Source of the DNA: Nitrospiraceae bacterium
Lineage (GTDB): Bacteria; Nitrospirota; Nitrospiria; Nitrospirales; Nitrospiraceae
Reading direction: 5' to 3'
NCBI GenBank assembly: GCA_013140715.1
Contig: JABFSG010000005.1
Span: forward strand, 25,576-89,575
Length of the DNA stretch: 64,000 bases
The notes under the pieces are model-generated. The model was given only the letters and a program-made list of their open reading frames with translations. It did not search any database and had not been told where the DNA came from. Positions within the stretch are counted from its first letter, which is position 1, and every line of letters starts with the position of its first letter. This document shows, one piece after another, positions 7,812 through 63,071 of this stretch. The position numbers were made by a program, and so were the translations under genes.

Positions 7812-7907
7812 GGGGTCGCTAAGGCGCTCTCCTTGCTCGTGCAACGCGCTGTCTCGGAAGACCCTCGTTGGACACGCGCAGTAGGGAGCACCTCAGCGAC
7901 CCCATTA
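7812..7907. repeat. Family B hairpin element (AACGCGC...CTCGTT core)
   Basis: Outer stem ATGGGGTCGCT/AGCGACCCCAT; core CAACGCGCTGTCTCGGAAGACCCTCGTTG. Confidence 0.85.
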
Positions 7908-7988
7908 GGCCCGGTGATGGTGGGACCGGCTCGTGTGTATGTCGGTTCTCGCGCCAGCGCCGTTCCTCAGCGCTGAGGAGGTGTGAGG

Positions 7989-8078
7989 GGAGCGGAGGGG
8001 CATTGCTGTGCTCGCAGAACGCGCACGATGAAACTGTGCTCGTTCGATGCGCGCAATGACACCTCCCCTGCCCGCTCC
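7989..8078. repeat. Family B hairpin element
   Basis: Core GAACGCGCACGATGAAACTGTGCTCGTTC; outer arm GGAGCGG.GGGG / CCCC.CCGCTCC. Confidence 0.75.
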
Positions 8079-8103
8079 ATGCAAGAGAGTTACAGTGAGG
8101 GAC

Positions 8104-8862
8104 ATGCTCCTGATGAGGTTGTACGCGTTGGATAAAATTAAGAGCAAGGCAATCTTATCGGTACTTCCCGCGTTGTTCTTTGGACTCCTGTTGCTGGTTC
8201 CATCCTTTGCTTTCGGGGATGAGGATAGTGAGAAAGCGTCGGGGGAGGTGCGGGAGGTGGTCAGGCAGCTCCAGGCGCGGTATGAGAAAACCAAAGATCT
8301 CCAGGCGGACTTTACGCAGAAGACCACGATCGAGGGGTTCGAACGGCCGATCACGTCCACGGGGAAGGTCTATATCAAGAAGCCGGGCCGGTTACGCTGG
8401 AACTATCTCGACCCGTCGATCGAAGACATCTATGTCAATCGAGACGATATCAAGGTCTATGTGCCGGAGCATAAACAAGTGTTGGTCGGAAAGCTGACGC
8501 AAATGGCGGCCTCCAAAGCCCCATTGGAACTCTTGCTCGGGGCTGCTACGCTGGAGGAGTCGTTCGTCATTGAGCCGACGCCGGGAAAGGGACGTGGCGT
8601 CGGGGGAATCCGGCTACTGACCCTCCTGCCCAAGTCGCGTGATGGCGAGGCGGGAAGATCGTTACAACGGATCGTGCTGGAAGTGTTTCCCAAGACCTAT
8701 TTCATTCGGACGATTTCTCTCTACGAAGTCAGCGGCAATGTCGCGAGTTTTGAATTTTCTTCGCTCCAATCCAACATAGGCCTCAGCAACTCGGTGTTCG
8801 ATCTGAAGTTGCCGGCCGATGTGGCAGTGATGAAGGCTCCGGTGTTCAGTATTCCGCAGTGA
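8104..8862 (+). CDS. lolA: Outer membrane lipoprotein carrier protein LolA
   Basis: LQARYEKTKDLQADFTQKTTI...GKVYIKKPGRLRWNY; signal peptide; ORF open from 8047. Confidence 0.88.
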   Translation: MLLMRLYALDKIKSKAILSVLPALFFGLLLLVPSFAFGDEDSEKASGEVREVVRQLQARYEKTKDLQADFTQKTTIEGFERPITSTGKVYIKKPGRLRWNYLDPSIEDIYVNRDDIKVYVPEHKQVLVGKLTQMAASKAPLELLLGAATLEESFVIEPTPGKGRGVGGIRLLTLLPKSRDGEAGRSLQRIVLEVFPKTYFIRTISLYEVSGNVASFEFSSLQSNIGLSNSVFDLKLPADVAVMKAPVFSIPQ

Positions 8863-8890
8863 GTGTGGACGGGATGCGGGAGGGTTGATC

Positions 8891-8970
8891 CGGTTCGTTT
8901 TGTTTATTTGGTTCATCTGGTTAGTTTCGTCTAACCGAAAAAACCAGATGAACCAAATGAACAAGACAAG
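8891..8970. repeat. Family A 9-nt-periodic inverted repeat
   Basis: GTTTATTTGGTTCATCTGGTT / AACCAGATGAACCAAATGAAC. Confidence 0.9.
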
Positions 8971-9020
8971 CTGGCGGATTTTTCAGCATCCTGCCAGGCG
9001 AATGAGGAAAAGGTGAGCCT

Positions 9021-9785
9021 ATGAATCAGTCCATGGTTGGTTCCTTCGTCGACAGGGTTGATGATGCGGTCAAGCAATTGGATCTTGACCGGCTCTCGCA
9101 TGACTATTGGGAGCAGAATGAGTTCCTCGTCATACCGCAGTTTCTTCCTCGATCGGTGGTGGAGGAACATCTCGTTCCTCAGGCGCAGGGGGTGAAGGGG
9201 GACCTGAATCGTAATTTTATTCCCGGCCACAAGAAGGGCGGGAGTGTGAGTTACTATACGGTGATAGAAAAGGCCCCGCGGTTTCTCGATCTCTATCGAT
9301 CCGAAGCCTTCATCGAATTCTTAAGCCGTTTGGTGCGGGCTAAGCTTAGCCTGTGCCCTGAGAACGACCCCCATTCCTGCGCCCTCTACTACTATACGGA
9401 GCCGGGAGATCATATCGGGTTTCACTATGACACGTCCTATTACAAGGGGGCTCGCTATACCATTCTCATGGGGTTGGTGGATCGGTCTACGCAATGTAAG
9501 CTGGTTTGCGAACTGTTCAAGGACGATCCTGTGAAAGCTCCCAAGCATCTTGAGCTGATTACACAACCGGGTGATCTTGTCATTTTCAATGGAGATAAGC
9601 TCTGGCATGCAGTGACTCCGCTCGGCGAGGGGGAAGAACGGATCGCCCTCACGATGGAGTATGTCACCGACCCCGATATGGGAACCTTTAAGCGGCTCTA
9701 TTCCAACCTCAAAGACTCCATCGCGTACTTCGGCCTCCGCACAGTGTTCAAACAGGCTATTACTGGTTCCAATCGACGTTCTTAG
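9021..9785 (+). CDS. 2OG-Fe(II) oxygenase-like protein
   Basis: GFHYDTSYY HxD-like motif, PGDLVIFNGDKLWHAVTPL, downstream R/S residues. Confidence 0.7.
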   Translation: MNQSMVGSFVDRVDDAVKQLDLDRLSHDYWEQNEFLVIPQFLPRSVVEEHLVPQAQGVKGDLNRNFIPGHKKGGSVSYYTVIEKAPRFLDLYRSEAFIEFLSRLVRAKLSLCPENDPHSCALYYYTEPGDHIGFHYDTSYYKGARYTILMGLVDRSTQCKLVCELFKDDPVKAPKHLELITQPGDLVIFNGDKLWHAVTPLGEGEERIALTMEYVTDPDMGTFKRLYSNLKDSIAYFGLRTVFKQAITGSNRRS

Positions 9786-9966
9786 GAGCCTGTCCGACAT
9801 AACCGTTCTACTGCGGCGAATGATCTGCACCATCTGCGTCGTTCTCGGCCCCGACAAATCCTCAACGTATTCCAGTGAATACGCCTCCGGTTTCTCGGGG
9901 CCTGCGGCCTCGCATCTGGCCGCATCTCCTTCGCCTCGTCACGAAGGCAATGTCGGACAGGCTCCT
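9784..9966. repeat. Family D MITE-like palindromic element
   Basis: TIR AGGAGCCTGTCCGACAT ... ATGTCGGACAGGCTCCT; central CAACGTATTCCAGTGAATACGCCTC. Confidence 0.9.
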
Positions 9967-10093
9967 TGCAGGTTGCTGAAAAAGTCCGCCAGCTTCGTTC
10001 TCGCGTCGCTCAGAGGTTCAACGTACTGAAGCGTACGCCTCACCTCTTCGCTCGCTGCGGCTTTGCTGGGATGCCATTTTGAGCATCCTGCAG
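9967..10093. repeat. Family C MITE-like palindromic element
   Basis: GCAGGTTGCTGAAAAAGTCCGCCAGC ... ATTTTGAGCATCCTGC; central CAACGTACTGAAGCGTACGCCTC. Confidence 0.88.
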
Positions 10094-10328
10094 GAGCGTT
10101 TTCTTGTTAAGCCTGACATGCGAGCCGTCGAAGTTTTGTCAGGCACAATCCTCTTTTCGCAGTTTGCCGGGTGGTATCCCGTGCTCGCGTAATTCGCGAT
10201 CTCAGAAGCGGATGGCGAGGCAACTGGCATGGCCTCTGTGCTCGTGAAACGCGCGGCCGAAGACTCCCCTCGTTGGACGCGCGCAGTGGACAATGCTGAA
10301 GACAAGGGGTTTCTGTCGTCAGTCCCCC

Positions 10329-10643
10329 TCACGCATGAACTACATCCGCAAACGCCTTCACCTTGATTTTTTTGGCCCGTTCTTTCACCTGGGCCGCATC
10401 ATACTGAAACTGCAACCGCATCCATCCGTCCGGCGTACTGCCAAACGCCTTGGCTATGCGAATAGCCATATCCCAAGACAGGTCTGCATTCTCGTTCACC
10501 AGATGACTCAACGCAGACCGCGACACGCCAAGCACCTTGGCTCCTTCGGTCACGCTCAATCCATGCGGCTCCAGACAGTCTACGCGCACCGAAAATCCAG
10601 GATGCGGTGGGTTCTTCATTTTCAAAGCCTTCAAAGCCTTCAT
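10329..10643 (-). CDS. higA: HigA-family XRE antitoxin
   Basis: HGLSVTEGAKVLGVSRSALSHLVNENADLSWDMAIRIAKAFGSTPDGWMRLQ. Confidence 0.9.
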   Translation of the reverse strand: MKALKALKMKNPPHPGFSVRVDCLEPHGLSVTEGAKVLGVSRSALSHLVNENADLSWDMAIRIAKAFGSTPDGWMRLQFQYDAAQVKERAKKIKVKAFADVVHA

Positions 10644-10656
10644 AGCCTTCTCCTTT

Positions 10657-10935
10657 TCAATGGTAATCCTCTAAATTCACATCAAGCGCGTACCCTTCCT
10701 CAAACCGAAAGGTCACGCGCCGGTTGGCCCTCACCGTGACGCCCCATTCCCCTTTCCGGCTTCCCTTCAACGGATGAAGCCTGTAGGAATGGACGTTCAT
10801 GTCCTCAATTGCTTCCGCTTGGTGCAACCGCGCCAGAATAGCCCTGATCCGGTCCACCATATCAGGCGGCAGCTTCCGGGGATCATCCTCCTCGAAAAAC
10901 CTTTTCAGTCCCCGGTGCTTGAAACTCCCTATCAT
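10657..10935 (-). CDS. higB: HigB/RelE-superfamily toxin
   Basis: IGSFKHRGLKRFFEEDDPRKL...YRLHPLKGSRKGEWGVTVRANRRVTFRFEEGYALDVNLEDYH. Confidence 0.92.
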   Translation of the reverse strand: MIGSFKHRGLKRFFEEDDPRKLPPDMVDRIRAILARLHQAEAIEDMNVHSYRLHPLKGSRKGEWGVTVRANRRVTFRFEEGYALDVNLEDYH

Positions 10936-11141
10936 TCTTTCAGTGTAGTGCGTAGCGCATCACAGGTCAACGTGATTTTCTTGCAACAGCCCGATTTGCA
11001 TAAGAAGGATAAAGGCGGGTCAGGCATGACTATTGAGGAATCACACCGCGGTCATTGTTTGACCTTGTGCCTGACGCTCTCGCCAGATTGCCTCTACTGC
11101 GTCCCATCCCTCCAGTCCCATACTCCCTTGCAGGGCTCTTG

Positions 11142-11232
11142 CCTATCTGGTCTATTCGGTCTGTCTGGTCTGTCTGGTTGGCAGAATCGGATAACTAAAG
11201 ACACCAGAGAGACTGGATAGACCAAACAGACC
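11142..11232. repeat. Family A 9-nt-periodic inverted repeat (GGTCTGTCTGG variant)
   Basis: CTATCTGGTCTATTCGGTCTGTCTGGTCTGTCTGG / CTGGATAGACCAAACAGACC. Confidence 0.75.
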
Positions 11233-11333
11233 TCTCCCCGTCTCGCCCGTCCGCTCGACTATCCTGACCCTGCGCGCATCGTTGCTTTCACGGTGGCTGC
11301 CGTCTATAGTTTGCTCGACTGTTGCGGGCATAA

Positions 11334-11434
11334 CTGGTTGATCTGGTTTGTTTGGTTTGTTGGTCTGTCTGGTTTTCGGTTAAACGAAATCAACCGGATG
11401 AGCCAAATCAACCAGATAAACCAAATGAACAAGA
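11334..11434. repeat. Family A 9-nt-periodic inverted repeat
   Basis: GGTTGATCTGGTTTGTTTGG ... CCAAATCAACCAGATAAACCAAATGAAC. Confidence 0.85.
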
Positions 11435-11444
11435 CGGGCTGACC

Positions 11445-12509
11445 ATGAATCGCCTTCTCCAGCATAACGCCATCCTGCTCTTCTCCCTGTGCCTCACTGT
11501 AGTTTCCCCCCTTGTCTTGGTCTCGAAGGCAGCTGAGCAGCCGGATGCCGCGCAACGTCAGTATGAGCGGGGCGCTACGCTGCTGCGAAAAGGCGATCTT
11601 GCTGCTGCATCCGATGCTGTGAGGAAAGCCATCGAATTGAATCCCTCGTTCGCGGAAGCGCATCACCTGCTTGGCATGATCGCGTTCAAGGAGAGGAAGG
11701 CGACCCAGGCTGTCGATGCTTTCCTCCAGGCGCTCAAGCTGAAGCCGGCCTATCCCGACGCCTTGAACGATCTGGCCGAGGTTTATCTGATCCGAGGAAA
11801 ATCGGCCGAAGCGGAACAGGCTCTCAAACGGGCGACCGAGATCGATCCAAAACATGCCGATTCATACTTCGATTTAGCCAGGTTGTACGAGCAACGTCGC
11901 GATGTCGCTGCAGCCACCAGGGCCTACCGATCATTGTTAACTGTCTATCCGAGCCACCATGGTGCCCTCTACAATCTCGCACTGCTCTACGAGGTGCAAG
12001 GAGACAGTCCCGGCGCACGAGAGACGGTGGGCCGGTTGCTCAAACTCGATCCCAAGAATGCCGATGCCTGGTACCTAGCCGGACGTATGGCGGAAAAGAA
12101 CAACGATCTCGCGGAAGCAGCCCATTCCTATAGGCAGGCCATCGCGGCGAAGCCCTCGTTAGTGGACGCGCACTATAACCTCGCATTCATTCATCGGAGT
12201 CAAGACCGGCCGATAGAAGCGGAGCGGGAGTTTTTAGAAGTCTTGCGGTACCGCCCTGAGTATGCCGAAGCTCATATGAATCTGGGTGTGATCTACACTG
12301 GTCTGAATAGGCTTGAAGAGGCGGAGCATTCGTATGAGCGGGCCGTGGAGTTGAAGCCGGAATATGCCGAAGGGCACTACAACTTGGGGGTCTTCTATGA
12401 GTTGCATCGAAAAGACCTTCCCAAAGCCCTGGTGCAATATCGCACCTACCTTGACCTCGGCGGGCGCGACGATCGTGTCGAGCGAATCGTCGGCTCCGGA
12501 GGTCGGTAA
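11445..12509 (+). CDS. Tetratricopeptide repeat protein, exported
   Basis: Successive TPR motifs (e.g. AEAHMNLGVIYTGLNRLEEAEHSYERAVELKPEYAEGHYNLG); signal-like N-terminus at 11445. Confidence 0.9.
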   Translation: MNRLLQHNAILLFSLCLTVVSPLVLVSKAAEQPDAAQRQYERGATLLRKGDLAAASDAVRKAIELNPSFAEAHHLLGMIAFKERKATQAVDAFLQALKLKPAYPDALNDLAEVYLIRGKSAEAEQALKRATEIDPKHADSYFDLARLYEQRRDVAAATRAYRSLLTVYPSHHGALYNLALLYEVQGDSPGARETVGRLLKLDPKNADAWYLAGRMAEKNNDLAEAAHSYRQAIAAKPSLVDAHYNLAFIHRSQDRPIEAEREFLEVLRYRPEYAEAHMNLGVIYTGLNRLEEAEHSYERAVELKPEYAEGHYNLGVFYELHRKDLPKALVQYRTYLDLGGRDDRVERIVGSGGR

Positions 12510-12699
12510 CGATTCTGTGTGTAGGATGAAGAGGTGAGGCGCTATCGACGAAACCATTGGCCGTTGAGGAGGTCGCCTAAATGCCTCGGAGGTCCGAATG
12601 GAGCCGAGGCATTGCTATTTTTGGTAGATAGGCAAAACCAAACTTGGCAGAACAGTCGTTTGATGGTCCGTATGTTTTGGGCAACAGGAGCGCTGTGTA

Positions 12700-12827
12700 C
12701 AGGATGCTCAAAAAGACCGTCCAGCAAGGCCGCAGACGATGAAAGCACCGGAGGCGTAGCCTCTGGGCTACGTTGAGGATGCTTTCGAGGGGAGAATGAA
12801 GCTGGCGGGATTTTTCAGCATCCTGCT
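12700..12827. repeat. Family C MITE-like palindromic element
   Basis: AGGATGCTCAAAAAGACCGTCCAGC ... GGATTTTTCAGCATCCT; central GAGGCGTAGCCTCTGGGCTACGTTGAGG. Confidence 0.88.
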
Positions 12828-12828
12828 A

Positions 12829-13368
12829 TCACCAGTAGGGCCAAGGCCGCCAGTAAGGACTCCAATACGGCCCCCAATAGGGACCTGGTCCCATATAGGG
12901 GCGGATACGGGGGGCCGCGTCTTCCGATTTGTTCCAAACACGTAGTTGTTTGATATTGATGACGGGATAGGTATAGTCGGTTTCATCCAAGGGTAACGTG
13001 GTGGAACCGGCGATTTCGCCGGTCACGGTCACTCTGGTCCCTGGTGGGAGGGTGGCGGGATCGAGGAATTCTCGCTGGAAGGCGATGAAGCGGCCTTGCG
13101 ATTGGGTCAAGTCGTACCCAGGCCGCATCGATCGATCGAGCGGTAGTTGCAAGATTTCGATTCTCGTGCCGTCTTTCAGCCGTCGGCCCGATAAGACATT
13201 GCCGCCGAAGACCGCCGCTTGACCCTTCACGGAGTCCGGCGCCGTCTTTACTTGCTGGAATGTCAGCGCCTGTGCGTCCGAGCCGTCCCCCGCCTCTTGC
13301 ATCGAGGCGCAGCCCCCTGTGAGCATGACGAGCAGGGCGACGATGGAGAGCAGCGTACGTGCCGACAT
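12829..13368 (-). CDS. Slp-family-like outer membrane lipoprotein
   Basis: Lipobox LTGGCAS; VAVFGGNVLSGRRLKDGTRIEILQLPLD; Pro/Tyr/Trp-rich C-terminus. Confidence 0.65.
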   Translation of the reverse strand: MSARTLLSIVALLVMLTGGCASMQEAGDGSDAQALTFQQVKTAPDSVKGQAAVFGGNVLSGRRLKDGTRIEILQLPLDRSMRPGYDLTQSQGRFIAFQREFLDPATLPPGTRVTVTGEIAGSTTLPLDETDYTYPVINIKQLRVWNKSEDAAPRIRPYMGPGPYWGPYWSPYWRPWPYW

Positions 13369-13451
13369 GGCGACAAGTCTAACACAAAGAGTCAGGAGTA
13401 AGTTCTCAGCACATTCGATATAATGAACGGCAGCGTCGATCCAACAAAGGA

Positions 13452-14108
13452 GTGGATATGATGAATAGACAGGGTGCGCGATGGGTCTTGGCGGCCTGTG
13501 CGGTGGTATGGAGTATCGTCGTTTTGTGGGGCTCACCAGCCGTTGCCCTGCCCCTTGATTTGAAGGGCAAGTTCGAAGTTCTCAATGGGGAGGTGTCCAC
13601 CCATACCCTTGGCAAAGTGAAGTTGATTGAGTTTGCCGATTTCTATTGCCCCCATTGTCACCGGTTCGATGGAGAAGGTCTTGTGCTGTTACAGAAAGAG
13701 TTTGGAAACAAGCTTGAGGCCACGATGGTGGGATTTCCGGTGATACAGGGGAAGCTCCCGACACCGTTCGATATGTATGAGCAGGCCAAGATGATGGGAA
13801 AGGGGAATGAAATGAAAAAGGTCCTCTTTCGCACCATCCATACAGATAAAATCACGGGAGTGTTGGATCGTTCGCTACGGGAAGTCCTGATCAAAGAGGT
13901 CGGACTCGATCCGAAAGCGTTTGAAGACGGAATGGCCAGCGGGAAGCCGGCCAAAGTATTCGAGGAGGGGCGCAAGTGGGGTGAACGGATTAATGTCCAG
14001 TCGACTCCAACTGTGCTCATCGATGGGAACATTAAAGCGGTGTCCATCGATCCAGAGAATCTCAAGCTGATTATCCAGAGTATTTTGGATGCAGATGCCA
14101 AGAAGTGA
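13452..14108 (+). CDS. DsbA-family thiol:disulfide oxidoreductase
   Basis: EFADFYCPHCHRF CPHC active site; QSTPTVLIDGN cis-Pro region. Confidence 0.88.
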   Translation: MDMMNRQGARWVLAACAVVWSIVVLWGSPAVALPLDLKGKFEVLNGEVSTHTLGKVKLIEFADFYCPHCHRFDGEGLVLLQKEFGNKLEATMVGFPVIQGKLPTPFDMYEQAKMMGKGNEMKKVLFRTIHTDKITGVLDRSLREVLIKEVGLDPKAFEDGMASGKPAKVFEEGRKWGERINVQSTPTVLIDGNIKAVSIDPENLKLIIQSILDADAKK

Positions 14109-14271
14109 TGGGTAAGGCGCGGGGCGAGCGAGACTGGCAGGACAGGCGAGAAATGGTCGAGAACATTCGCAGAAACAGGTGTGCAATGTCCGCTCAAGCC
14201 AATGTATCGTCGGTGATCCATGCTTGCCCTGTGCGCTTCACGTTTCACGCTTCACGCCTCACGGTGTCGTG

Positions 14272-16812: not shown

Positions 16813-16855
16813 GTGCGCCTTTTACGTACGCATGTTAGGCTAGCGCCTAGTTCAT

Positions 16856-16945
16856 GGTTTGTTTCGTTTATTTGGTTGATTTGGTTTATCTGGTTAATTC
16901 CGTTCAACCAAAAAACCAAATCAACCAAATAAACGAAAAGAACGG
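16856..16945. repeat. Family A 9-nt-periodic inverted repeat
   Basis: CGTTTATTTGGTTGATTTGGTTT / AAACCAAATCAACCAAATAAACG perfect arms. Confidence 0.92.
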
Positions 16946-16952
16946 TTTTTTT

Positions 16953-18369: not shown

Positions 18370-18620
18370 AACGGGCGGAGTGGCCAGGTCCGCCTCATTG
18401 CTCGCGCAACGCGCACAGTCCGAGGCGAGACCTGGTCATCCCGCTTTGAGGAAGAATGGGTTCTAGAAAGAAGGCACACGATGAGACGGTGGTCGCTCGA
18501 TGCGCGCAGTGAAGGGCAGCCTTGGCCACTTTTTCTAAGAGAGGTATGGAAAATTGAAGACTCTCGTTGGGCGCGTGCAGTGAAGGAGGGTTTGCTTGCC
18601 CCCTCTTGAGAAGGTGAAGA
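18370..18620. repeat. Composite/degenerate family B hairpin elements
   Basis: GCTCGCGCAACGCGCACAGTCC..., GTCGCTCGATGCGCGCAGTGAAGGGCAGCC, CTCTCGTTGGGCGCGTGCAGTGAAGG. Confidence 0.65.
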
Positions 18621-19002
18621 AGCAGAATCGTCTTGTTGGACGTGCGTAGTTCGAGACCTCCCGCACTACGCACCAGGCTGAGAGAAAAGGCGAGATCTGA
18701 AAGTCCTGGCCCAAGAAACTATAGGCCTTGTCTCACCGCTTCAGCGTATGTTTTACCGGAACCCATTTATCGAAAGCCTCTTGAAAGCGGACGCACTTGT
18801 CGTGGCCTGAAGACGGATTTCATGCTGAAATGGAACGAAGCCCGATGAGCTATTTCGCGGCACGTGGCAGACTCGCTTTCATGTTCTTCGTGCGTGGATT
18901 GCCCCTTGTCTCATGAGCGAACCGTTGACCCCTACCAATGGAGGGGTTGAGCTCTGACGTGCGCTCCGCATAATCTGCGACACCACAGAGGGTGCGGATC
19001 TA

Positions 19003-26979: not shown

Positions 26980-27078
26980 AGGGGGAGTGGCCAGGTGCCC
27001 TTCTTGCTCGCAGAACGCGCACGCTCAGAAGGTGCTCGTTCGATGCGCGCAGTGAAGGGCAACCTCGGCCACTCCCCT
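26980..27078. repeat. Family B hairpin element (long form)
   Basis: GGGGAGTGGCCAGGTGCCCTTC ... GAAGGGCAACCTCGGCCACTCCCC; core GAACGCGCACGCTCAGAAGGTGCTCGTTC. Confidence 0.92.
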
Positions 27079-27126: not shown

Positions 27127-27200
27127 GAGGCTCCTGTGCTCGCGCAACGCGCGGCCTCAGAAGGCCCTCGTTGGACGCGCGCAGTGAAGGGCAACCGGTC
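27127..27200. repeat. Family B hairpin element (short form)
   Basis: CAACGCGCGGCCTCAGAAGGCCCTCGTTG core. Confidence 0.8.
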
Positions 27201-28161: not shown

Positions 28162-28366
28162 CGGTGTGAGTGATTTTAACACAGACGATCGCTCCATCCC
28201 AGAAGGGTGGGAAGGGAGTAGCCGGATCATCCTTCTTGCTTGCCGAGGCCGCACGATCAGAAGGATGCGAGGGAGCAGGCAATCATCCCTCTTGCTCGCA
28301 GAACGGAGGAGGGGATGGGGCCTGATGATCTTCCGTGCTCGCGCAACGCGCGGCCTCCGAAGGTGT

Positions 28367-28464
28367 GGCGCAAGGGCATGAGGAGCTTTCTTTGCTCCCG
28401 GAGCGCGCGCCCTCAGAAGGGCCTCGCTCGACGGCCGCAGGCAAAAGCTCCTCACGCCCTTGCT
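28367..28464. repeat. Family B hairpin element with about 20-bp unique outer stem
   Basis: GCAAGGGCATGAGGAGCTTT ... AAAGCTCCTCACGCCCTTGC; core GAGCGCGCGCCCTCAGAAGGGCCTCGCTC. Confidence 0.92.
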
Positions 28465-28799
28465 TAGCTGGGTATTGAAATGCGGATAAGAACGCGAATG
28501 GACGCGCGCAGTGGAAGATCAATCAAGCTTGATCACCGGATAGAGAACGAGCGAGCCCTGAAAGATCATTTATAACCTCGCTCAATGGGCGCAGTGGCTT
28601 CAACACACCTATTTATTTTCCAACATTTGTTTTGAACCGCCTCGGATTTCGAAGATGGTTTCTTCCAGAAACGTCCCCATTGCCCGCTTCGAAAACCTCC
28701 CTCAGAAATTGTAGGAAATAGGGGTCGATTTTCCGAATGATTTGAATTATCCTCTGGTCTGTTTGAAACAAATAAGTTAGGAGAAGGGAGGTTTCGTAT

Positions 28800-36753: not shown

Positions 36754-36908
36754 AGGGGTAAATGTGATCTCGTCGCAACGGGCCGTGAATCGGCGCGGAG
36801 CGTAGCAAAAGGTCTGGGGGCTGTCAAACAAGGAGTGGGATGGAGCCTGATGATCTTCCACTGCGCGCGTCCAACGAGCTTCTTTCCGATTCTTCATACT
36901 GCTCTTAA

Positions 36909-37006
36909 GGGGAGTGGCCGAGGCTGCCCTTTACTGCGCGCATCGGACGAGCACATTCCGATCGTGCGCGCTCTGCGAGCAAAAAGGGCACCTGGACACT
37001 CCCCTC
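36909..37006. repeat. Family B hairpin element (opposite orientation)
   Basis: GGGGAGTGGCCGAGGCTGCCCTTTACTGCGCGC ... GCTCTGCGAGC...GGGCACCTGGACACTCCCC. Confidence 0.85.
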
Positions 37007-52537: not shown

Positions 52538-52754
52538 CCAAGAATTTCAACCATCCCTCAGGAGGGGGGATTTCTGTCCCACCAGAAGGGGGGGATGGCC
52601 ATGGAGATGGCCTCGCTGAATCGTTCGGCTTGTGGGAACCGCTGGAGACTCGGTATGTGACGATATTCCCTATGGCTGAATGTCAGGAGGCGCTACGCTG
52701 CTGCAACCAGTGGAATGGTTAAGGGAAAGCCGGGCTGGTGAGGGGTGGAAACTG

Positions 52755-53294: not shown

Positions 53295-53298
53295 TCAA

Positions 53299-53832: not shown

Positions 53833-53955
53833 GCTCAGAACGCTACCATGGTCGGTTACATGCTGCAACTGTCCCAGTTTTGTTGAGAATGTCTTGAGGC
53901 ATAGCTTATAATGCGCGGGTTTTTCGGGGTCTATTCGGAGTGGAGAAACGGCACG

Positions 53956-54453: not shown

Positions 54454-55028
54454 GGCCAGAGCAAGGAACGATGCAGAGCCGAGCGATGGCGATGGCGGCC
54501 TTGTTGGAGCTCCTCACTGATCAGCCGGTGATTATTTGCAACGGGTTTCCCTCGCGTGAAGCCTACAAAATTGCCGACCGTCCGACCCATTTCTATATGA
54601 TCGGATCCATGGGAAATGCGCCGGCCATCGCGCTTGGTGTTGCGGTTGCCAAGCCGAATAAGCAGGTGGTCGTGTTCGATGGGGACGGCAATGTGTTGAT
54701 GGGTATGGGAACCTTGGCGACGGTCGGCGCCTTGAGGCCGAAAAATTTTATTCACGTGGTCTTCGACAATGAAGTCTACGGCACGACGGGAAACCAACCG
54801 ACAATTTCCAACGTGGTTCCGCTTGAAAAGGTGGCGAAGGCGGCCGGGTATGTGAATGTCGAGCGGGTGCGGGAACGGGAAGACCTCGTCTACGAGTTCA
54901 AGGACATGCTAAAGAAAGACGGGCCGAGCATGTTGCTGGTGAAAGTCAACGAGATGGTAGAGGATGTCGGGCGGGTGATGCTCGATCCGCCGGATATTAC
55001 CAAGCGGTTCATGAAAGCGATACAATAA
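54450..55028 (+). CDS. Phosphonopyruvate/sulfopyruvate decarboxylase-type protein, TPP-binding (beta) subunit
   Basis: FYMIGSMGNAPAIALGVAVAKPNKQVVVFDGDGNVLMGMGTLATVGALRPKNFIHVVFDNEVYGTTGNQPT; ATGA overlap. Confidence 0.88.
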   Translation: MRPEQGTMQSRAMAMAALLELLTDQPVIICNGFPSREAYKIADRPTHFYMIGSMGNAPAIALGVAVAKPNKQVVVFDGDGNVLMGMGTLATVGALRPKNFIHVVFDNEVYGTTGNQPTISNVVPLEKVAKAAGYVNVERVREREDLVYEFKDMLKKDGPSMLLVKVNEMVEDVGRVMLDPPDITKRFMKAIQ

Positions 55029-55115
55029 GCGATCGAGCCGCTCCCTTGCTCGCGCAACGCGCGGCTTGGGAAAGCCCTCGTTGGACGCGCGCAGTCGGAG
55101 CGGTCTCGATCACTT
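55025..55115. repeat. Family B hairpin element
   Basis: GATCGAG.CCGCTCC ... GGAGCGG.CTCGATC; core CAACGCGCGGCTTGGGAAAGCCCTCGTTG. Confidence 0.9.
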
Positions 55116-55142
55116 ATTTGGGGTGAGGGGAAGAGCGACGAA

Positions 55143-56225
55143 ATGATCTTATTGAATCCAGGGCCGGTGAATGTCTCGGAGCGGGTGCGGCAGGCGCTGT
55201 TGCGTCCGGACGTCTGCCATCGGGAATCGGAGTTTACGGAACTGTTGCACGGGATTCAGGCGAAGCTACTGAAACTCTTTGTGCCGGGGGCGGAAGCGGA
55301 TTATGCAGCGGTGGTCCTGACCGGATCGGGCACTGCGGCGGTCGAGTCGGCCGTCATGTCGGCGCTCCCGCACGGCAAACGGATGTTGGTACTCAACAAC
55401 GGTGTGTATGGCGAGCGTATTTCTCAGATGGTCGGCCTCTATCGCCTGGGGGTGTCCGAACTCAAATACGATTGGACGACAAGACCGGATCCTGAACGGT
55501 TGCGGTTGGCGTTGCGACAACATCCTGAAGCCCACGCGGTCGGCATGGTCTATCATGAGACGACCACCGGACTCATCAATCCAGTCAAGGAGATTGCGGA
55601 CGTCGTCGACAGCCAGAATCGGGTATTTATCCTGGACGCGGTCAGTGCGTTAGCGGGGGAGCCGCTGGATATCGCCGGGTCTCACATCTATATGGTGGCC
55701 GGTACAGCCGGAAAATGCATCCAGGGATTTCCGGGTGTGTCCTTCGTGCTCGTCCGCAAGGGGTTTCTGGAGCGGATGCGGGCCTACCCCAGACGCTCGA
55801 TCTATTTGCATCTCACTCAATATGTGGATGACCAGGGCCGTGGAACGATTCCCTTCACGCCGGCTGTGCAGGTCTACTATGCGTTCGACGAAGCGTTGAA
55901 CGAACTCATGGAGGAGGGGATAGCCAAGCGGATTCAGCGCTATAAGAAATCGGCGACTCTCATTCGAGACCGCATGGCGAAACTCGGTGTGAAGCCGCTT
56001 CTGACTCCCGAAAGATATTCCAACACGATTACGTCCTATCATCTTCCAGAGGGTATCGTCTATCGGTCGTTGCACGATCGATTAAAAGAAGCGGGCTATG
56101 TGATCTATGCGGGGCAAGGTCAACTCGAAAGCAAGATTTTCCGTGTGGCGAATATGGGCGCCCTCACCGAGGCGCAGTTGGCCGGATTTCTCGATGCATT
56201 CGAAGGGATTTGCGGCGCGGCATGA
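55143..56225 (+). CDS. Class V aminotransferase, 2-aminoethylphosphonate:pyruvate (PhnW)-like
   Basis: LLNPGPVNVSERVRQALLRPDVCHRESEF; VYHETTTGLINPVKEIADV; AGTAGKCIQGFPGVSFVLVRK. Confidence 0.85.
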   Translation: MILLNPGPVNVSERVRQALLRPDVCHRESEFTELLHGIQAKLLKLFVPGAEADYAAVVLTGSGTAAVESAVMSALPHGKRMLVLNNGVYGERISQMVGLYRLGVSELKYDWTTRPDPERLRLALRQHPEAHAVGMVYHETTTGLINPVKEIADVVDSQNRVFILDAVSALAGEPLDIAGSHIYMVAGTAGKCIQGFPGVSFVLVRKGFLERMRAYPRRSIYLHLTQYVDDQGRGTIPFTPAVQVYYAFDEALNELMEEGIAKRIQRYKKSATLIRDRMAKLGVKPLLTPERYSNTITSYHLPEGIVYRSLHDRLKEAGYVIYAGQGQLESKIFRVANMGALTEAQLAGFLDAFEGICGAA

Positions 56226-56941
56226 AAGCCATCATCCTCGCAGCAGGGGTCGGGAAGCGTCTGTGGCAGGTCACGCAGCATCGCCCGAAGTGTCTCATCG
56301 AAATCGGAGGGCGGACCCTCCTGCGTCGCTACCTCACATCACTCAGGAGCGTCGGGGTTCAGCGCGTCGACATGGTTGTGGGCTACAAAGAGGACATGAT
56401 TCGAGCCGCGGTGGCAGCGGATTCCTGCGGTGTGCGCGTAAATTTCCTCGTCAACGAACAGTTTCACCGAGGCAGCATTTCTTCGCTCTGGATCGCGCGG
56501 GAAGCGTTAGATGACGACGCGATCGTGATGGATGCCGATGTGCTTTTCCATCAAGAGATCTTGCGTCGCTTGGTGCAATCCCCCTATGAAAACGCGTTGC
56601 TCATGGATGATACGGTCAAACAGACGGGGGAAGAGTGCATGGTGGTAGTTGAAGGGGGGCGTGTGATTGCGTTGACGAAGAAGATGCCGTTGCATTATGA
56701 CTATGCCGGTGAAGGCGTGGGGTTTCTCAAGGTCCGGCATGTCGATACGCAACATGTGGTGGCGTCGCTCAAGACCCATGTGGATCGCGAGGCTTGGCAG
56801 ATGGAATACGAGGATGCGCTTGTAGGGTTTTTTCGGGACGTCAAAGTCGGACATGAGAAAATCGGCGGGCTCCCCTGGACCGAAATCGATTTTATAGAGG
56901 ATGTGTCGAAAGCGGAGCGGGAGGTGTTGCCGAAACTGTAA
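56222..56941 (+). CDS. Nucleotidyltransferase (sugar/alcohol-phosphate or phosphonate cytidylyltransferase-like)
   Basis: MKAIILAAGVGKRLWQVTQHRPKCLIEIGGRTLLRRYL; DAIVMDADVLFHQEIL. Confidence 0.82.
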   Translation: MKAIILAAGVGKRLWQVTQHRPKCLIEIGGRTLLRRYLTSLRSVGVQRVDMVVGYKEDMIRAAVAADSCGVRVNFLVNEQFHRGSISSLWIAREALDDDAIVMDADVLFHQEILRRLVQSPYENALLMDDTVKQTGEECMVVVEGGRVIALTKKMPLHYDYAGEGVGFLKVRHVDTQHVVASLKTHVDREAWQMEYEDALVGFFRDVKVGHEKIGGLPWTEIDFIEDVSKAEREVLPKL

Positions 56942-57039
56942 AAGCGGGGGTCGTGGGATAACGGGGTAATCGGGATATCGGCTGTTGGGAGCCGGGGTGA
57001 TGGGAATAGCTCTTCCCTGTATGCAACGATAGGGCGATC

Positions 57040-58467
57040 ATGAGCGAGAGCCTCATACAAAAACGTGCCGAGGTGCAGGGGTTGAGCACTGCGATTCTCC
57101 TGCCGTCGTTGAGCCTGTTCGGCGAGCCTGCCGGATTGGATGCCGATGAGGTAGGTCCACTGACCAGCGTTGTCGGCATCGGTCTTTTTCAGCGGGCGGT
57201 GCTGACCCTGCAGCGAGCCGGTATCAGACAACTCATGGTATTGGTCGGGCCGGAGGAGAATCAGCTCCGCCAGGCTCTGTGCAAAGGGCCGCGTGTGACG
57301 ATCCCTGTGCGCTGGATGCCGATTCGTGAGTTTCCGCTGGATGATCCTCGCACGTGGGAAGCGCTGGCTGCCGAAGTTCGGGGTTTCTGCCTCCTGTCCG
57401 GTGTGCAGGCCGTGTTTGCGAGCTCCTTGGTCGAGAGCCTGCGCCAGGAGGTGCAGGAGGGGCAGGCAATCGTTGTGGCACGGGCCGATAGTGGTCGAGA
57501 TCGGCGGCCACGTCAGACGAATTTGCGTGTAAAGGTGCGGTCTGGTCGGTTGCTTTCGATGACGTCGAGGCCGGACGATTCCACATTGGTCGTCACCGAT
57601 CTGGTAGTGCTACCGGCCAGTTTCATGAGTGTTGTCGGTCAAGCCAGCGGAGAGGCCGGCACGGTGCCGATTCGTCGATGGCTCGAACGGGCCGCAGTGG
57701 ACGGGCATGTGCGGGTCTTGTCCACAGAAATGAACCGGTCTCACTGGTATCAAGGCGTGCGCGACGCTGCCGATGTGAAGGTCGCTGAGAAAAAACTCTT
57801 CAATTCCCTCAAGGGCGAGTTCGAAGGGTTCGTCGACCGGTTTTTCAATCGTAAGATCTCCCGCTGGTTCACGCGTATTTTCCTTGCCATAGGCTTCTCG
57901 CCGAATGTCATCACTGTCCTGGCAAGCCTGGTTGGGTTGGGCGCGGCCGCCTGCTTTGGCACTGGGACCTACAATGCCGGCATCGTTGCTGCGCTATTGT
58001 TTCAGCTGGCGGCGATCATCGATTGCTGCGACGGTGAAGTGGCCAGGCTGACGTTCACCGAATCTCCGTTCGGGGCTTGGCTCGATATCGCGATGGACAA
58101 CGTGGTGCACATGGCGATCTTTGCCGGCATTGCGGTCGGCTCGTACCAGCATTTGGCGGGAGGCGAAGGGGCCTGGATTCCTCTTGCCCTGGGCGCGGCC
58201 GCGGTTTTGGGAAATGGGCTTTCATTCTGGCTTGTCACCAGGGCTCAGAAAATCAAAGCTGCCAGCGGATGGAAGACGCCGGTGCAGGCCGCCTGGTCTG
58301 ATTTCATGCTCAAAAATGTCGCGAGCCGGGACTTCTCCGTCGTTGTGCTGGTCTTTGCGGTGCTAGGCAAGCTCGACTGGTTCCTCTGGATGGCCGCGGT
58401 CGGATCCGTGGTATTCTCAATTCTCATGCTGTGGGTGATCAGACCGTCCGCCAAGTCCCGTGCTTAA
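57040..58467 (+). CDS. CDP-alcohol phosphatidyltransferase with N-terminal nucleotidyltransferase-like domain
   Basis: CDP-AP motif DCCDGEVARLTFTESPFGAWLDIAMD; C-terminal TM helices; IPCT/DIPPS-like domain order. Confidence 0.85.
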   Translation: MSESLIQKRAEVQGLSTAILLPSLSLFGEPAGLDADEVGPLTSVVGIGLFQRAVLTLQRAGIRQLMVLVGPEENQLRQALCKGPRVTIPVRWMPIREFPLDDPRTWEALAAEVRGFCLLSGVQAVFASSLVESLRQEVQEGQAIVVARADSGRDRRPRQTNLRVKVRSGRLLSMTSRPDDSTLVVTDLVVLPASFMSVVGQASGEAGTVPIRRWLERAAVDGHVRVLSTEMNRSHWYQGVRDAADVKVAEKKLFNSLKGEFEGFVDRFFNRKISRWFTRIFLAIGFSPNVITVLASLVGLGAAACFGTGTYNAGIVAALLFQLAAIIDCCDGEVARLTFTESPFGAWLDIAMDNVVHMAIFAGIAVGSYQHLAGGEGAWIPLALGAAAVLGNGLSFWLVTRAQKIKAASGWKTPVQAAWSDFMLKNVASRDFSVVVLVFAVLGKLDWFLWMAAVGSVVFSILMLWVIRPSAKSRA

Positions 58468-59479
58468 GATATTCCTCATTTGTGCCGGCCTCCTTACCCT
58501 TGGGTTCCTCGTCTGGCATATCGGGCCCGATCGCATCTACGATACGGCATCGCAACTTGGCCCTGTCGCACTCCTCGTCCTGCTGATCCCCTCCGTCATC
58601 ATGTACACCATCGACGCGTATGGGTGGAAAATCACGCTTGGTCCCTCGGCGAAGCATATTCCGTTCTGGCGTGTGCTGGCGATCAGAACTGCCGGCGAAG
58701 TGGTGAACATGACCACGCCGACCGCCTACGTCGGGGGCGAACCGATCAAGGCCTATCTGCTCACGAGGCATCGCGTGCCGATGGTGGAGGGGCTTGCCTC
58801 CGTTGTCATTGCGAAAACGACTATGACGCTTGCCGAAGTGGTCTTCATCCTTTTGGGTATTGCGCTCGCGTTTTGGGGAGTCGGCGCCGACGGTTCATCC
58901 GGACAGACTATTGCTGCGGCACTGGTGAGCGTCGGTTTTCTCGTCCTGGTTACTGCGGCCTTTGTGTTTGTGCAGCAGCAAGGACTCTTTACCTCGCTAT
59001 TGAAGTTTGCCCGGAAGATCGGGCTCAAGATTCATTACTTCGAAGTGCGTGAGAAGAAACTGCTCTCGCTGGACCGAACGATCTTAGATTTTTACCGTGA
59101 TAACCGCCTGACCTTTTGTTCCTCCATCGGGCTGTTCTTTGCCGGTTGGATGGCTGAGGCGTTGGAGGTCTACATCATCATCTATCTTCTCGGTGGTCCG
59201 GCCGCGGCGCTCTCTGCCATCTCCATCGGTGCACTGTCCGTCTTCATCAAAAGCGGCACCTTTTTCATCCCCGGCAGTCTTGGCGCTCAAGACGGAGGTA
59301 ATATGCTCTTGTTGAGGGCCTTTGGGTATTCCGATGTTACCGGTATCACCTTTGCGTTACTCCGGCGGTTTCGCGAGTTGGTTTGGATCGGGCTCGGGTT
59401 GTTGTGCTTAACCCTTGCCGGCGGGAGGGCGGCGGTTCTTCGAGAAAGTCACGTCGATGACCTCGAGAGTCGTTCCTGA
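58460..59479 (+). CDS. Flippase-like / LPG synthase TM-domain protein, copy 1
   Basis: IRTAGEVVNMTTPTAYVGGEPIKAYLLTRHRVPMVEGLASVVIAKTTMTLAEV; FIPGSLGAQDGGN. Confidence 0.85.
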   Translation: MLKIFLICAGLLTLGFLVWHIGPDRIYDTASQLGPVALLVLLIPSVIMYTIDAYGWKITLGPSAKHIPFWRVLAIRTAGEVVNMTTPTAYVGGEPIKAYLLTRHRVPMVEGLASVVIAKTTMTLAEVVFILLGIALAFWGVGADGSSGQTIAAALVSVGFLVLVTAAFVFVQQQGLFTSLLKFARKIGLKIHYFEVREKKLLSLDRTILDFYRDNRLTFCSSIGLFFAGWMAEALEVYIIIYLLGGPAAALSAISIGALSVFIKSGTFFIPGSLGAQDGGNMLLLRAFGYSDVTGITFALLRRFRELVWIGLGLLCLTLAGGRAAVLRESHVDDLESRS

Positions 59480-59521
59480 CATCTGTCATTGTTTCGGGTG
59501 ATCCAACTTCCGCGGTGACCC

Positions 59522-60541
59522 ATGCTGAAGCTCGCACTCCTCGTTGCCGGCCTCTTCGCAATCGTGCTCATCGTCTGGAATGTCGGTCTCGAGCGCATCT
59601 ACGAAGCGGCGGCGCAACTCGGGCCGGTCGCGCTGATCGTCCTGCTGATCCCCTCCACCATTATGTACCTCATCGAAGCCTACGGATGGAAAGTCACACT
59701 TGGCCCATCAGCCAAGGAGATTCCGTTCTGGCGTGTGCTCGCAATCAAGACCGCCGGTGAAGTGGTGAACTTGACGACGCCGGCCGGCTACATCGGTGGC
59801 GAGCCGCTCAAAGCCTATCTACTCACAAAACATCATGTGCCGATGGTGGAGGGGGTTGCCTCGGTCGTGATCGCAAAAACGACGAAGACGATCGCCGAAG
59901 TGCTGTTCATCCTCTTGGGCATCACGCTTGCTTTTTGGAGAGTCGACAACGACGGGTCATTGGGACAGACCGTTGTCATGGCGCTGGGCAGTGTCGCAGT
60001 GTTGTTCTTCGTGACTTCGTCGTTGGTGTTCGCGCAGCGGCAAGGATTCTTTACCTGGTTGTTGGAATTCACTCGAAAGATCGGGCTGAAGATTTCTTTT
60101 CTCGAAGCGCGCGAGGGAAAAATACGGATGCTCGATCGAATGATTTTGGACTACTATCGCCATAATCGTCGGGCCGTGTATTCATCGACCGGACTGTTCT
60201 TTCTAAGTTGGATGGCGGAAGCATTGGAAGTGTACGTCATTATCTGGTATCTGGGAGGGCCTGCGACAGTCCTATCGGCCATTTCTATCAATGCCCTCTC
60301 GGTCTTCATCAAAGGCGGAAGTTTTTTTATTCCCGGAAGCCTGGGCGCTCAAGACATCGGGAATTTCTTGCTGCTGAAAGACTTTGGGTACTCCGATGTC
60401 GCCAGCGTCACATTCGCGCTGGTGAGACGATATCGAGAGCTGGTGTGGATCGTGATCGGATTGGTCTGCCTTGCGACATTGCGAGGGCGGGCAGCGGTAA
60501 CTCAGGAAAACCGCACACCAGACTCAGGGATGGGCTCCTGA
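59522..60541 (+). CDS. Flippase-like / LPG synthase TM-domain protein, copy 2
   Basis: Paralog of copies 1 and 3. Confidence 0.85.
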   Translation: MLKLALLVAGLFAIVLIVWNVGLERIYEAAAQLGPVALIVLLIPSTIMYLIEAYGWKVTLGPSAKEIPFWRVLAIKTAGEVVNLTTPAGYIGGEPLKAYLLTKHHVPMVEGVASVVIAKTTKTIAEVLFILLGITLAFWRVDNDGSLGQTVVMALGSVAVLFFVTSSLVFAQRQGFFTWLLEFTRKIGLKISFLEAREGKIRMLDRMILDYYRHNRRAVYSSTGLFFLSWMAEALEVYVIIWYLGGPATVLSAISINALSVFIKGGSFFIPGSLGAQDIGNFLLLKDFGYSDVASVTFALVRRYRELVWIVIGLVCLATLRGRAAVTQENRTPDSGMGS

Positions 60542-60642
60542 CACCCTACCCACATTCGACCGATTTCACTGGATCCATGTGCTAGGATTTGTGGTATGCT
60601 CAGTACTAATACCTCCGTGTGATTGCCCCTCCACCACAGCCT

Positions 60643-61662
60643 ATGCTGAAAATTGTACTTCTCTGTATCGGTCTCTTGACCCTTGGGACCATCGTCTGGC
60701 ATGTCGGGCCAGAGCGCATTTACGATGTGACCACGCAACTCGGTCCGATGGCGCTCCTCGCCATGCTGATTCCTTCCGTCATCATGTACATCGTCGAAGC
60801 CTACGGATGGAAAGTCACTCTTGGCCCATCGGCGAATCATCTTCCATTCTGGCGTGTGCTCGCGATCCGGACTGCGGGGGAAGTCGTAAATATGACCACG
60901 CCGGCCGGTTACTCCGGGGGCGAGCCGCTCAAGGCCCATCTGTTGAGGAATCGCAACGTGCCGATGGTGGATGGGGTCACCTCGGTGGTCATTGCGAAAA
61001 CCACGATGACGGTTGCCGAAGTGCTGTTTATCCTCATTGGAATCGGACTGGGGATGTGGTTGTTAGGCGGGAGCGATTCATCAGGCCAGACCGTGGCTGC
61101 GGCACTCTTCAGCGTGGGGCTGCTGGCAGCCGGGACCGCTGCGTTCGTCTTCGTGCAGCGGCAAGGAATCTTTACCTGGTCGTTGCGGTTTCTGCGGAAG
61201 ATCGGACTCAAGATTCGCTATCTTGAAGCCCGCGAGGAAAAATTACGCTCGCTGGATCGCACGATCTTGGACTTCTACCGTTATAACCGTCCAGCTTTTT
61301 ATGCCTCCACCGGGCTGTTCTTTCTCGGATGGATGGCGGAAGCGTTGGAAGTGTACGTCATCATCTATTTGCTCGGCGGTCCTGCCATCGCCCTGTCCGC
61401 GATCTCCATCGGAGCCCTTTCGGTCTTTATCAAGGGCGGCACCTTCTTCATCCCCGGCAGCCTGGGCGCCCAGGACGGGGGGAATTTATTCTTGCTGAAT
61501 GCTTTCGGATACTCCGATATCGCCGGCATCACCTTCGCGCTCCTGAGGCGGTTTCGTGAGCTGATCTGGATCGGGATCGGGCTTCTCTGTCTCCTGCTCC
61601 TGCGCGGGCACATCGCGAAAAACCCTGCAGTCCGCCCCCTCGACTCAGAAGTCGGCCCCTGA
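60643..61662 (+). CDS. Flippase-like / LPG synthase TM-domain protein, copy 3
   Basis: Paralog of copies 1 and 2; likely start MLKIVLLCIG. Confidence 0.85.
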   Translation: MLKIVLLCIGLLTLGTIVWHVGPERIYDVTTQLGPMALLAMLIPSVIMYIVEAYGWKVTLGPSANHLPFWRVLAIRTAGEVVNMTTPAGYSGGEPLKAHLLRNRNVPMVDGVTSVVIAKTTMTVAEVLFILIGIGLGMWLLGGSDSSGQTVAAALFSVGLLAAGTAAFVFVQRQGIFTWSLRFLRKIGLKIRYLEAREEKLRSLDRTILDFYRYNRPAFYASTGLFFLGWMAEALEVYVIIYLLGGPAIALSAISIGALSVFIKGGTFFIPGSLGAQDGGNLFLLNAFGYSDIAGITFALLRRFRELIWIGIGLLCLLLLRGHIAKNPAVRPLDSEVGP

Positions 61663-61790
61663 CACATCCCCGTTCTCTCTTTCCCGAACGTTGCGGTCAT
61701 TTCCGAGGAAGCACAAAGGGCGGTGCTTTACGGTGAAAAATGACGATGCTACAATGTGATAACATTGTATAACCACATGGAGGTGAGCGC

Positions 61791-62015
61791 ATGATTAAGA
61801 AATTGACCAAGCATGGCAATAGTCTAGCCCTCGTGCTCGATCGCGGAGTGCTGGATCTTCTGGAAATCGATGCCGACACTCCACTCAACATCAAGACAGA
61901 TGGGAAATGTCTCATTGTGACACCGGCTCAGGCTCCCGCACGGCAGAAAAAGTTCCAAGCGGCGTTGGAGGAAGGAAACCGTCGATATGGGAAGATGCTA
62001 AAAAGGCTGGCATAA
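61791..62015 (+). CDS. AbrB/MazE-type antitoxin
   Basis: MIKKLTKHGNSLALVLDRGVLDLLEIDADTPLNIKTDG. Confidence 0.85.
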   Translation: MIKKLTKHGNSLALVLDRGVLDLLEIDADTPLNIKTDGKCLIVTPAQAPARQKKFQAALEEGNRRYGKMLKRLA

Positions 62016-62018
62016 TGA

Positions 62019-62408
62019 ATGGCTAGCCCGCTATTTCTCTCAGTCGAGGACGTCATTGAGATTCACGCCGACCAAATTCAGCGGTACGGTGGGAGCCTTG
62101 GCATTCGCGGTGCTGATCTCTTGCAATCTGCACTCGGAATGCCAGAAGCTGGGTTCGGAGATCAATATCTTCATGTCGACCTGTTCGAAATGGCCGCAGC
62201 CTATCTCTATCACATCGTTCAAAACCATCCCTTTATCGACGGTAACAAGAGAACGGGAACAATGGCGGCATTCGTATTCTTGAAGCTCAATGGCCTCACG
62301 CTCGATGCCGACGAATCGGTTTTTGAAACGCTTGTCCTGCAGGCTGCCCAAGGCCAAGTTGGGAAAGACGCCATCGCAGATTTCTTCCGGCAAAACGCCA
62401 AGCCATAA
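62019..62408 (+). CDS. doc: Death-on-curing (Doc/Fic) family toxin
   Basis: HADQIQRYGGSLGIRGADLLQSAL...HPFIDGNKRTGTMAAFVFLKLNG. Confidence 0.92.
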   Translation: MASPLFLSVEDVIEIHADQIQRYGGSLGIRGADLLQSALGMPEAGFGDQYLHVDLFEMAAAYLYHIVQNHPFIDGNKRTGTMAAFVFLKLNGLTLDADESVFETLVLQAAQGQVGKDAIADFFRQNAKP

Positions 62409-62411
62409 CCA

Positions 62412-62519
62412 ACCGGCATCACCTTCGCGTTGCTCCGGCGATTCAGAGAATTGGTCTGGATCAGGCTAGGCTTGCTCTGCCTGGCACTACCCGGACTGTT
62501 CCCAACCTACTTGGCTTAG
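62412..62519 (+). pseudogene. 3' remnant of a fourth flippase-like gene
   Basis: Reads TGITFALLRRFRELVWIRLGLLCLALPGLFPTYLA*, matching the C-terminus of copies 1-3. Confidence 0.85.
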
Positions 62520-62830
62520 TCCTTCACCCGTTCCATGGGCGCCATGGTTCTGAGAACCGGGAGCGAGCACAGGCTCATCAGCGTCAGAATCATCAGGTAC
62601 GACATGGTCGACTCCTTCCGACGTGAGTAATGCCTTGAAGAAGTGCAATGCCAAGGCCAGCCGCCTAACTAGAAAGAAGTGGGCTGTGGAACTGATTGAT
62701 ATGCAGGAGGCTTTTGTGGAGTTGGCTCAGGGAGTGTGGGGAAAAACTGCCGGGCTCTGGATTTTGATAAGAAACGACTGCAAAAGACGGCACTGAGACA
62801 TGAATTGGCTCGGGGTTCCGAGGGGGAAGG

Positions 62831-62927
62831 AGGGAGTGGCCAGGTGCCCTTTTTGCTCGCAGAACGCGCACGATGAAACAGTGCTCGTTCGATGCGCGCA
62901 GTAAAGGGCAGCCTCGGCCACTCCCTC
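62831..62927. repeat. Family B hairpin element (long form)
   Basis: GGGAGTGGCCAGGTGCCCTTT ... AAAGGGCAGCCTCGGCCACTCCC. Confidence 0.92.
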
Positions 62928-62996
62928 TAAGAGAGCTATGGAGAATTGGAAGACTCTCGTTCGATGCGTGCCCTGAGAAAGGGACGAGAGGGGAGC

Positions 62997-63071
62997 TAGA
63001 TGGTCTCCTGTGCTCGTGCAACGCGCGGTCTCGGAAGACCCTCGTTGGACGCGCGCAGTGGAAGATCATTC
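62997..63071. repeat. Family B hairpin element (short form)
   Basis: CAACGCGCGGTCTCGGAAGACCCTCGTTG core. Confidence 0.82.

Follow-up and report, generated by a model that had tools for sequence, protein, structure and literature searches.

We analysed a 64,000-nucleotide stretch of the Nitrospiraceae bacterium assembly GCA_013140715.1 (contig JABFSG010000005.1, positions 25,576 to 89,575 of the forward strand; hereafter, the window). Gaps between its genes, including that between ftsK and lolA, repeatedly contain a hairpin element built on a common 3′ core motif, CTCGTTSGAYGCGCGCAG. With up to three mismatches allowed, this motif has 16 matches in the window against 0.32 expected, a count that no shuffle reached. 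Each copy in the window folds into one long hairpin of approximately 95–100 nt, composed of a 47-nt core and arms of approximately 25 bp. We propose, with a probability of roughly 0.55, that the copies are non-autonomous palindromic mobile elements that measure approximately 125–150 bp when a short leader and a 3′ tail are counted, and that they are specific to Nitrospiraceae.

A preceding sequence-only reading of the window had listed ten hairpin copies and a degenerate cluster at 18370–18620, all of which are present (Table 1). Its loci were right, although the 36909 copy lies on the minus strand and the arms of the 10225 and 27127 copies pair poorly. The degenerate cluster consists of one 5′ half and three 3′ halves, and the list had overlooked the half copies at 28294, 28337, 28577, 36861 (minus strand), and 62956, which are remnants of nesting. 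The copies at 26980, 36909, and 62831 have one arm family in common.

Table 1 Hairpin elements and their remnants in the window.
Feature	Position	Strand	Remarks
Full element, type A	7812–7907	+	Core 7835–7881; within what is left of the former lolA signal-peptide start; inserted in frame in congeners
Full element, type B	7989–8078	+	Core 8010–8056
Degenerate element	10225–10305	+	Core 10240–10286; arms barely paired
Decayed cluster	18400–18649	+	5′ half 18400–18414; 3′ halves 18492–18509, 18563–18580, 18632–18649
Full element, type B	26980–27078	+	Core 27006–27052; arm family GGGGAGTGGCC
Type A core with poorly paired arms	27127–27200	+	Core 27138–27184; B-type 3′ arm; likely hybrid from nesting and deletion
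Three-level nest	28294–28594	+	B 5′ half 28294; A 5′ half 28337–28351; full element 28367–28464 (core 28394–28440); 3′ half 28577–28594
A 3′ half	36861–36878	−	Downstream of the 36909 element; remnant of nested insertion
Full element, type B	36909–37006	−	Core 36934–36980
Full element, type A	55025–55115	+	Core 55048–55094; base overlaps stop codon of upstream gene
Full element, type B	62831–62927	+	Core 62855–62901
Degenerate 3′ half	62956–62973	+	
Full element, type A	62997–63071	+	Core 63012–63058
Conserved 3′ tail GAGCAAGCTTGGA	63096–63108	+	Tail of the 62997 element

Genome-wide, 103 core sites were found with at most one mismatch, compared with 0 for a reversed-pattern control, and a covariance model detected at least 144 copies in the same Nitrospira genome. 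A 1.02-Mb portion of this genome contains 113 full copies and 38 half copies. The two halves of the core are spaced exactly 14 nt apart in 105 of the 113 full copies, giving the 47-nt core. On the plus strand, from the base inward, positions 1–45 and 2–44 pair, T3 and C43 form a mismatch, and positions 4–42 to 7–39 pair; farther in, an unpaired GA (37–38) is followed by pairs 8–36 to 12–32, the mismatch C13·T31, pair 14–30, and the tip. Both mismatches and the GA bulge are near-invariant (96 copies). Two main core types are told apart by paired changes: of the 96 copies, 52 have G-C and 38 have A-T at the R7–Y39 pair, and at the S8–S36 pair 50 have G-C and 41 have C-G.

Outside the core is a conserved tail (GAGCRAGCTTGGA); of the 26 listed copies associated with a core, 25 have it beginning 53–57 nt from the 3′ core start. 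It is present in several copies whose arms are otherwise unrelated and can lie outside the 3′ arm. The arms form 45 clusters at 70% identity, of which the three largest hold 42, 24, and 11 copies; a threshold of 62% gives 24 clusters. The largest cluster overall has 42–51 copies. Some arms are near-unique, while others belong to large families. The sequence-only description of the outer stems as unrelated is therefore true between clusters but not in general. No terminal inverted repeats common to the copies were found, as the arms vary by cluster while the core and tail are conserved. In size (approximately 100–200 bp), copy number, palindromic structure, and non-coding character, the copies agree with miniature inverted-repeat transposable elements and palindromic elements.

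Some copies carry additional sequence. At L074, L105, L110, and L116, which have A cores, an insert of approximately 50 nt (CCNGGGCTAATGGCACGTCTCGGCGTGCCAGTGGGTGGGCGGGTGAGAAAG) sits precisely at the bulge, with CTCG on one side and TTGCGCGC on the other. At L045:10682, L084:7610, L248, and L255, the core tips are replaced by long imperfect repeats, for example TGTCTGGTTGGTCTGTCTGGTT..AACCAGACAGACCAGA.

The family is widespread within one clade. All 31 sampled genomes of the genus Nitrospira carry copies, and the covariance model was positive in 74 of the 79 sampled Nitrospiraceae genomes, representing 10 genera, and in none of the 217 other Nitrospirota genomes. Nitrite-oxidising Nitrospira have from dozens to over a hundred copies per genome. 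Exact type B 47-mers occurred only in Nitrospira and Nitrospirae records. The exact core was not found in viral contigs, and we rejected carriage by phages on this ground. Rfam returned no match at the gathering cut-off and no credible weaker one, and we found no description of this repeat family in the literature and databases searched.

The compensatory changes that the sequence-only reading named in the inner stem are real (GGCCT/AGGCC, GGCTT/AAGCC, GGTCT/AGACC, and GCAC/GTGC), as is the change from A-T to G-C pairing in the AACG/CGTT stem at 28367. Across 46 non-redundant copies, 87.8% of the structure cells are paired, compared with 74.9% when the 3′ letters are shuffled, and 145 cells are changed on both sides, compared with 57 ± 8 in the shuffles. 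The covariation score is 0.41 versus 0.07–0.15 for slid partners, and it was also tested on the minus strand; the copies share ancestry, and the score is judged against shuffles and slides with no correction for phylogeny. Strong covariation against both kinds of control, together with the near-invariant length, mismatches, and GA bulge, supports the earlier proposal of selection on structure as far as the core is concerned. Neither result that would have counted against that reading, a lack of covariation or a match to a known family, was obtained. At five orthologous sites compared across species, 23 pairs changed on both sides, whereas 115 switched between paired and unpaired states, indicating that most individual copies evolve without strong constraint. 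The fold is thus clearly conserved at the level of the family and only weakly at single sites.

The mismatches also carry information on the strand. Isolated arm mismatches on the plus strand are A·C in 165 cases and G·T in 37; with one copy per arm cluster the counts are 52 and 5, and with the strictest clustering 23–31 and 1–6. In the core itself, the A·C excess is weak (45:28). Read on the minus strand, the arm A·C mismatches are G·U wobbles, and G·A takes the place of T·C in the core. Folding is more stable for the minus strand in 95 of 106 copies with DNA parameters and in 66 of 106 with RNA parameters. The A·C excess and this difference in stability suggest that the minus strand is the folding strand, either as single-stranded DNA or as RNA, while strand-biased repair or deamination may be an alternative source of the excess. 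In a separate observation, mismatches in the arms, the majority of them A·C on the plus strand, form two clusters, approximately 9–12 and 17–20 nt from the core, that lie about 9 nt apart and recur in unrelated arms.

Core covariation, the wobble pairs of the arms, and the G·A mismatches of the core on the minus strand would also suit a structured non-coding RNA or RNA regulatory element. Such an RNA would have the minus strand as its source and run antisense to the upstream gene; its core would bind a protein, and its copies would have multiplied. We regard this explanation as possible but rather unlikely, since orthologous sites break pairs far more often than they compensate them, the core shows only the weak A·C to G·T ratio given above, and many copies are decayed.

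Copies occupy many non-orthologous positions and are polymorphic at orthologous ones. In the ftsK–lolA gap and at the site upstream of position 55143, the element is present in some species and missing in others, which often have another palindrome family or a plain gap there; at a third orthologous site, presence again differs between species. Such differences are those of a palindromic mobile element. In lolA of several species, the element forms an in-frame insertion in the signal peptide. The tips of elements are repeatedly split by another element, with the 5′ half before the insert and the 3′ half after it, and length differences give nested insert sizes of approximately 125 bp for the B-type and 147 bp for the C-type. 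We also observed hybrid copies, such as one at L056 with an A arm and a B arm, and a 14-nt tip swapped as a block between species. The hybrids and tip swaps would fit recombination or deletion after nesting.

As an alternative to selection, the sequence-only reading had suggested that a copying mechanism captures flanking DNA into the inverted arms. This idea is mostly unsupported, because large arm families travel with the element and the tail is retained outside the 3′ arm despite unrelated arms. The outermost 7 nt or so of the left arm of the lolA element at 7812, which are already present in species with an empty site, are the one suggestive case of arm building from host DNA. The L089 site, considered as a capture of a flanking gene end, was rejected because a larger and older inverted palindrome also exists there in species lacking the element. 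At L274–L303, the sequence of a gene end, GTGGCCGGTGT, has a distant inverted counterpart, ACACCGGCCAC, in species that lack the element too, and a larger palindrome surrounds the gap.

Template switching during replication can make and maintain hairpins with compensatory changes and extend their stems (PMC8794818). The copies could accordingly be passive palindromes kept self-complementary by quasipalindrome correction, with a fold that has no function, and both the pre-existing outer arm in empty lolA sites and the block-wise replacement of tips between species agree with this. We nevertheless find this explanation unlikely, as the T·C and C·T mismatches and the GA bulge ought to be lost through such correction, whereas they are near-invariant in the 96 copies. 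It also leaves the dispersed copies, the fixed-length shared core, and the tail outside the arms unexplained. Template switching may still help to keep the arms complementary.

The copies are mostly intergenic, and 54 of 76 intergenic copies are in the sense orientation relative to the upstream gene. Of 85 copies in clean gaps, 20 have a stop codon no more than 12 nt from their 5′ base, compared with 2.9 ± 1.5 expected by random placement, and only two have one facing the 3′ base within this distance. The plus strand coincides with the leading strand in 73 of 104 copies (73:31), compared with 277 of 495 genes (277:218). Among the matches listed for two closed genomes, all exact matches at 2.3–3.9 Mb in one (G282) and all copies at 2.95–4.2 Mb in the other (G190) lie on one strand. 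The covariance-model matches listed for G190, which are part of 44, include none at 0–1.1 Mb, and the density of copies may be uneven.

Sense orientation and abutment on stop codons might point to a hairpin in the 3′ untranslated region of the mRNA, acting as a terminator or mRNA stabiliser, and the same gaps are filled by other palindrome families in other species. This is, however, an improbable role. Terminator activity had been raised for the copies downstream of ftsK and at 55025, yet just 7 of 113 copies have TTTT after the hairpin. The elements are therefore not intrinsic terminators with a T run. Moreover, mismatches on the mRNA strand are unfavourable A·C rather than G·U, and many species lack the element at the same gene.

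REP/REPIN or BIME repeats, or integron attC-type sites, moved by a Y1 transposase or tyrosine recombinase are a highly improbable identification: the structured asymmetric hairpin with extrahelical bases and the plus-strand, lagging-template strand bias would suit them, but Y1 is absent from complete genomes with at least 68 matches, neither the GTAG/CGTC tag nor conserved outer R boxes are present, and the copies are dispersed singly, not in cassette arrays, and are approximately 100 nt rather than 20–40 nt long. Mobilisation by Y1/RAYT was rejected on account of the same absence and the sporadic occurrence of Y1, and reverse transcriptase was rejected as the copying enzyme because complete genomes with many copies lack it. 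Both enzymes are dispensable now.

We favour non-autonomous palindromic mobile elements because this explanation accounts for the copy number and clade restriction, the covariation, and the fixed core with its invariant mismatches. It also accounts for arm families at many loci, the nested order of half, element, and half, the hybrids, and presence or absence at orthologous sites, as well as for the conserved tail, the abutment on stop codons in one orientation, and the plus-strand bias toward the leading strand. A putative enzyme encoded elsewhere in the cell would recognise the core as a folded single strand (single-stranded DNA or RNA), probably the minus strand, which appears to fold better than the plus strand. 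This enzyme would place new copies in DNA that is exposed at hairpin loops and the ends of genes. Subsequent drift of the arms would be due in part to compensation and in part to recombination and deletion between nested copies.

Several points weigh against mobile elements. Transposition itself is what we infer from these patterns. Y1 transposase is absent from several near-complete genomes rich in copies, including G001, and reverse transcriptase, found in 8 of 32 genomes, is absent from the window's own genome, G001, and G005. The 27 open reading frames between neighbouring copies, whose translations were read with no family-library scan, include recognisable housekeeping genes, with no evident transposase, and the same reading of translations revealed no autonomous parent element among the genes between neighbouring copies. 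Nested junctions hint at GAAGG/GAA-like repeats, with no clean target-site duplication established. Finally, comparison with the closest genome (G019, 92–97% identical in aligned stretches) yielded no case of a recent insertion into a near-identical empty site, because intergenic turnover is too high for clean pairs of empty and filled sites.

A bolder formulation, to which we give little credence, is that these repeats constitute a hairpin mobile element of a new class that is restricted to a single bacterial family. Its minus strand would fold as single-stranded DNA or RNA, a putative host-borne enzyme would recognise the bulged core, and insertion would occur mainly at stop-codon ends and its own hairpin tips, nesting like Russian dolls. 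To our knowledge, the copying mechanism of interspersed palindromes of the ERIC and Rickettsia palindromic element (RPE) type is without explanation, although these have been known for decades. Thousands of copies are available from numerous sequenced species within a single family of central environmental importance, which makes the mobility of palindromic repeats directly testable. The core is defined sharply enough to serve as bait for a protein that binds it, and the nested insertions and orthologous sites record how copies arise. Our data also caution against taking covarying hairpins in the gene gaps of Nitrospira for gene-specific riboswitches, as they are repeats.

In its behaviour, the family is probably best grouped with ERIC, RPE, and similar interspersed palindromic mobile repeats; this grouping does not rest on tested homology. 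ERIC sequences are likewise imperfect palindromes of approximately 125 bp that are intergenic, multi-copy, clade-specific, often at 3′ ends of genes, and without a gene of their own (PMC10969869 and general knowledge). The Nitrospira elements differ from them in the 47-nt core common to copies with varied arms, nesting in tips, and stop-codon abutment in one orientation; a sequence relation was neither seen nor tested. Rickettsia palindromic elements are palindromes of 100–150 bp in several families that insert in frame into protein genes, as seen here in the lolA signal peptide. They belong to another phylum and differ in sequence, whereas the elements described here are mostly intergenic and have a conserved core and covarying arms. 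REP, BIME, and REPIN sequences are also interspersed extragenic palindromes and targets of insertion sequences. REP sequences are 20–40 bp long with a GTAG/CGTC tag (PMC3733652), and the Nitrospira hairpins have neither this size and tag nor a RAYT gene. Integron attC sites share the imperfect hairpin with unpaired bases marking one strand. However, attC keeps its outer boxes (RYYYAAC/GTTRRRY) and varies at the tip, while the Nitrospira hairpins keep the core and vary in the outer arms.

Other palindromes occupy similar positions. A second palindromic family, GCAGGATGCTGAAAAAGTCCGCCAGC...CGGCCTTTTTGAGCATCCTGC (L078:8408–8694, L061, L085, L090, and others), begins at stop codons, at the junctions TAG-CAGG and TAA-CAGG, and hosts nested core elements. 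In different Nitrospira species, the same gap after a stop codon contains distinct palindrome families (CGTGAGGGGTAAGGCG.., GCGATCAGCCTTCAGC.., and TGCGTGAAGCGTATCTCG..), as observed at the orthologues of 55143 (L128–L155) and of the L086 site (L216–L243).

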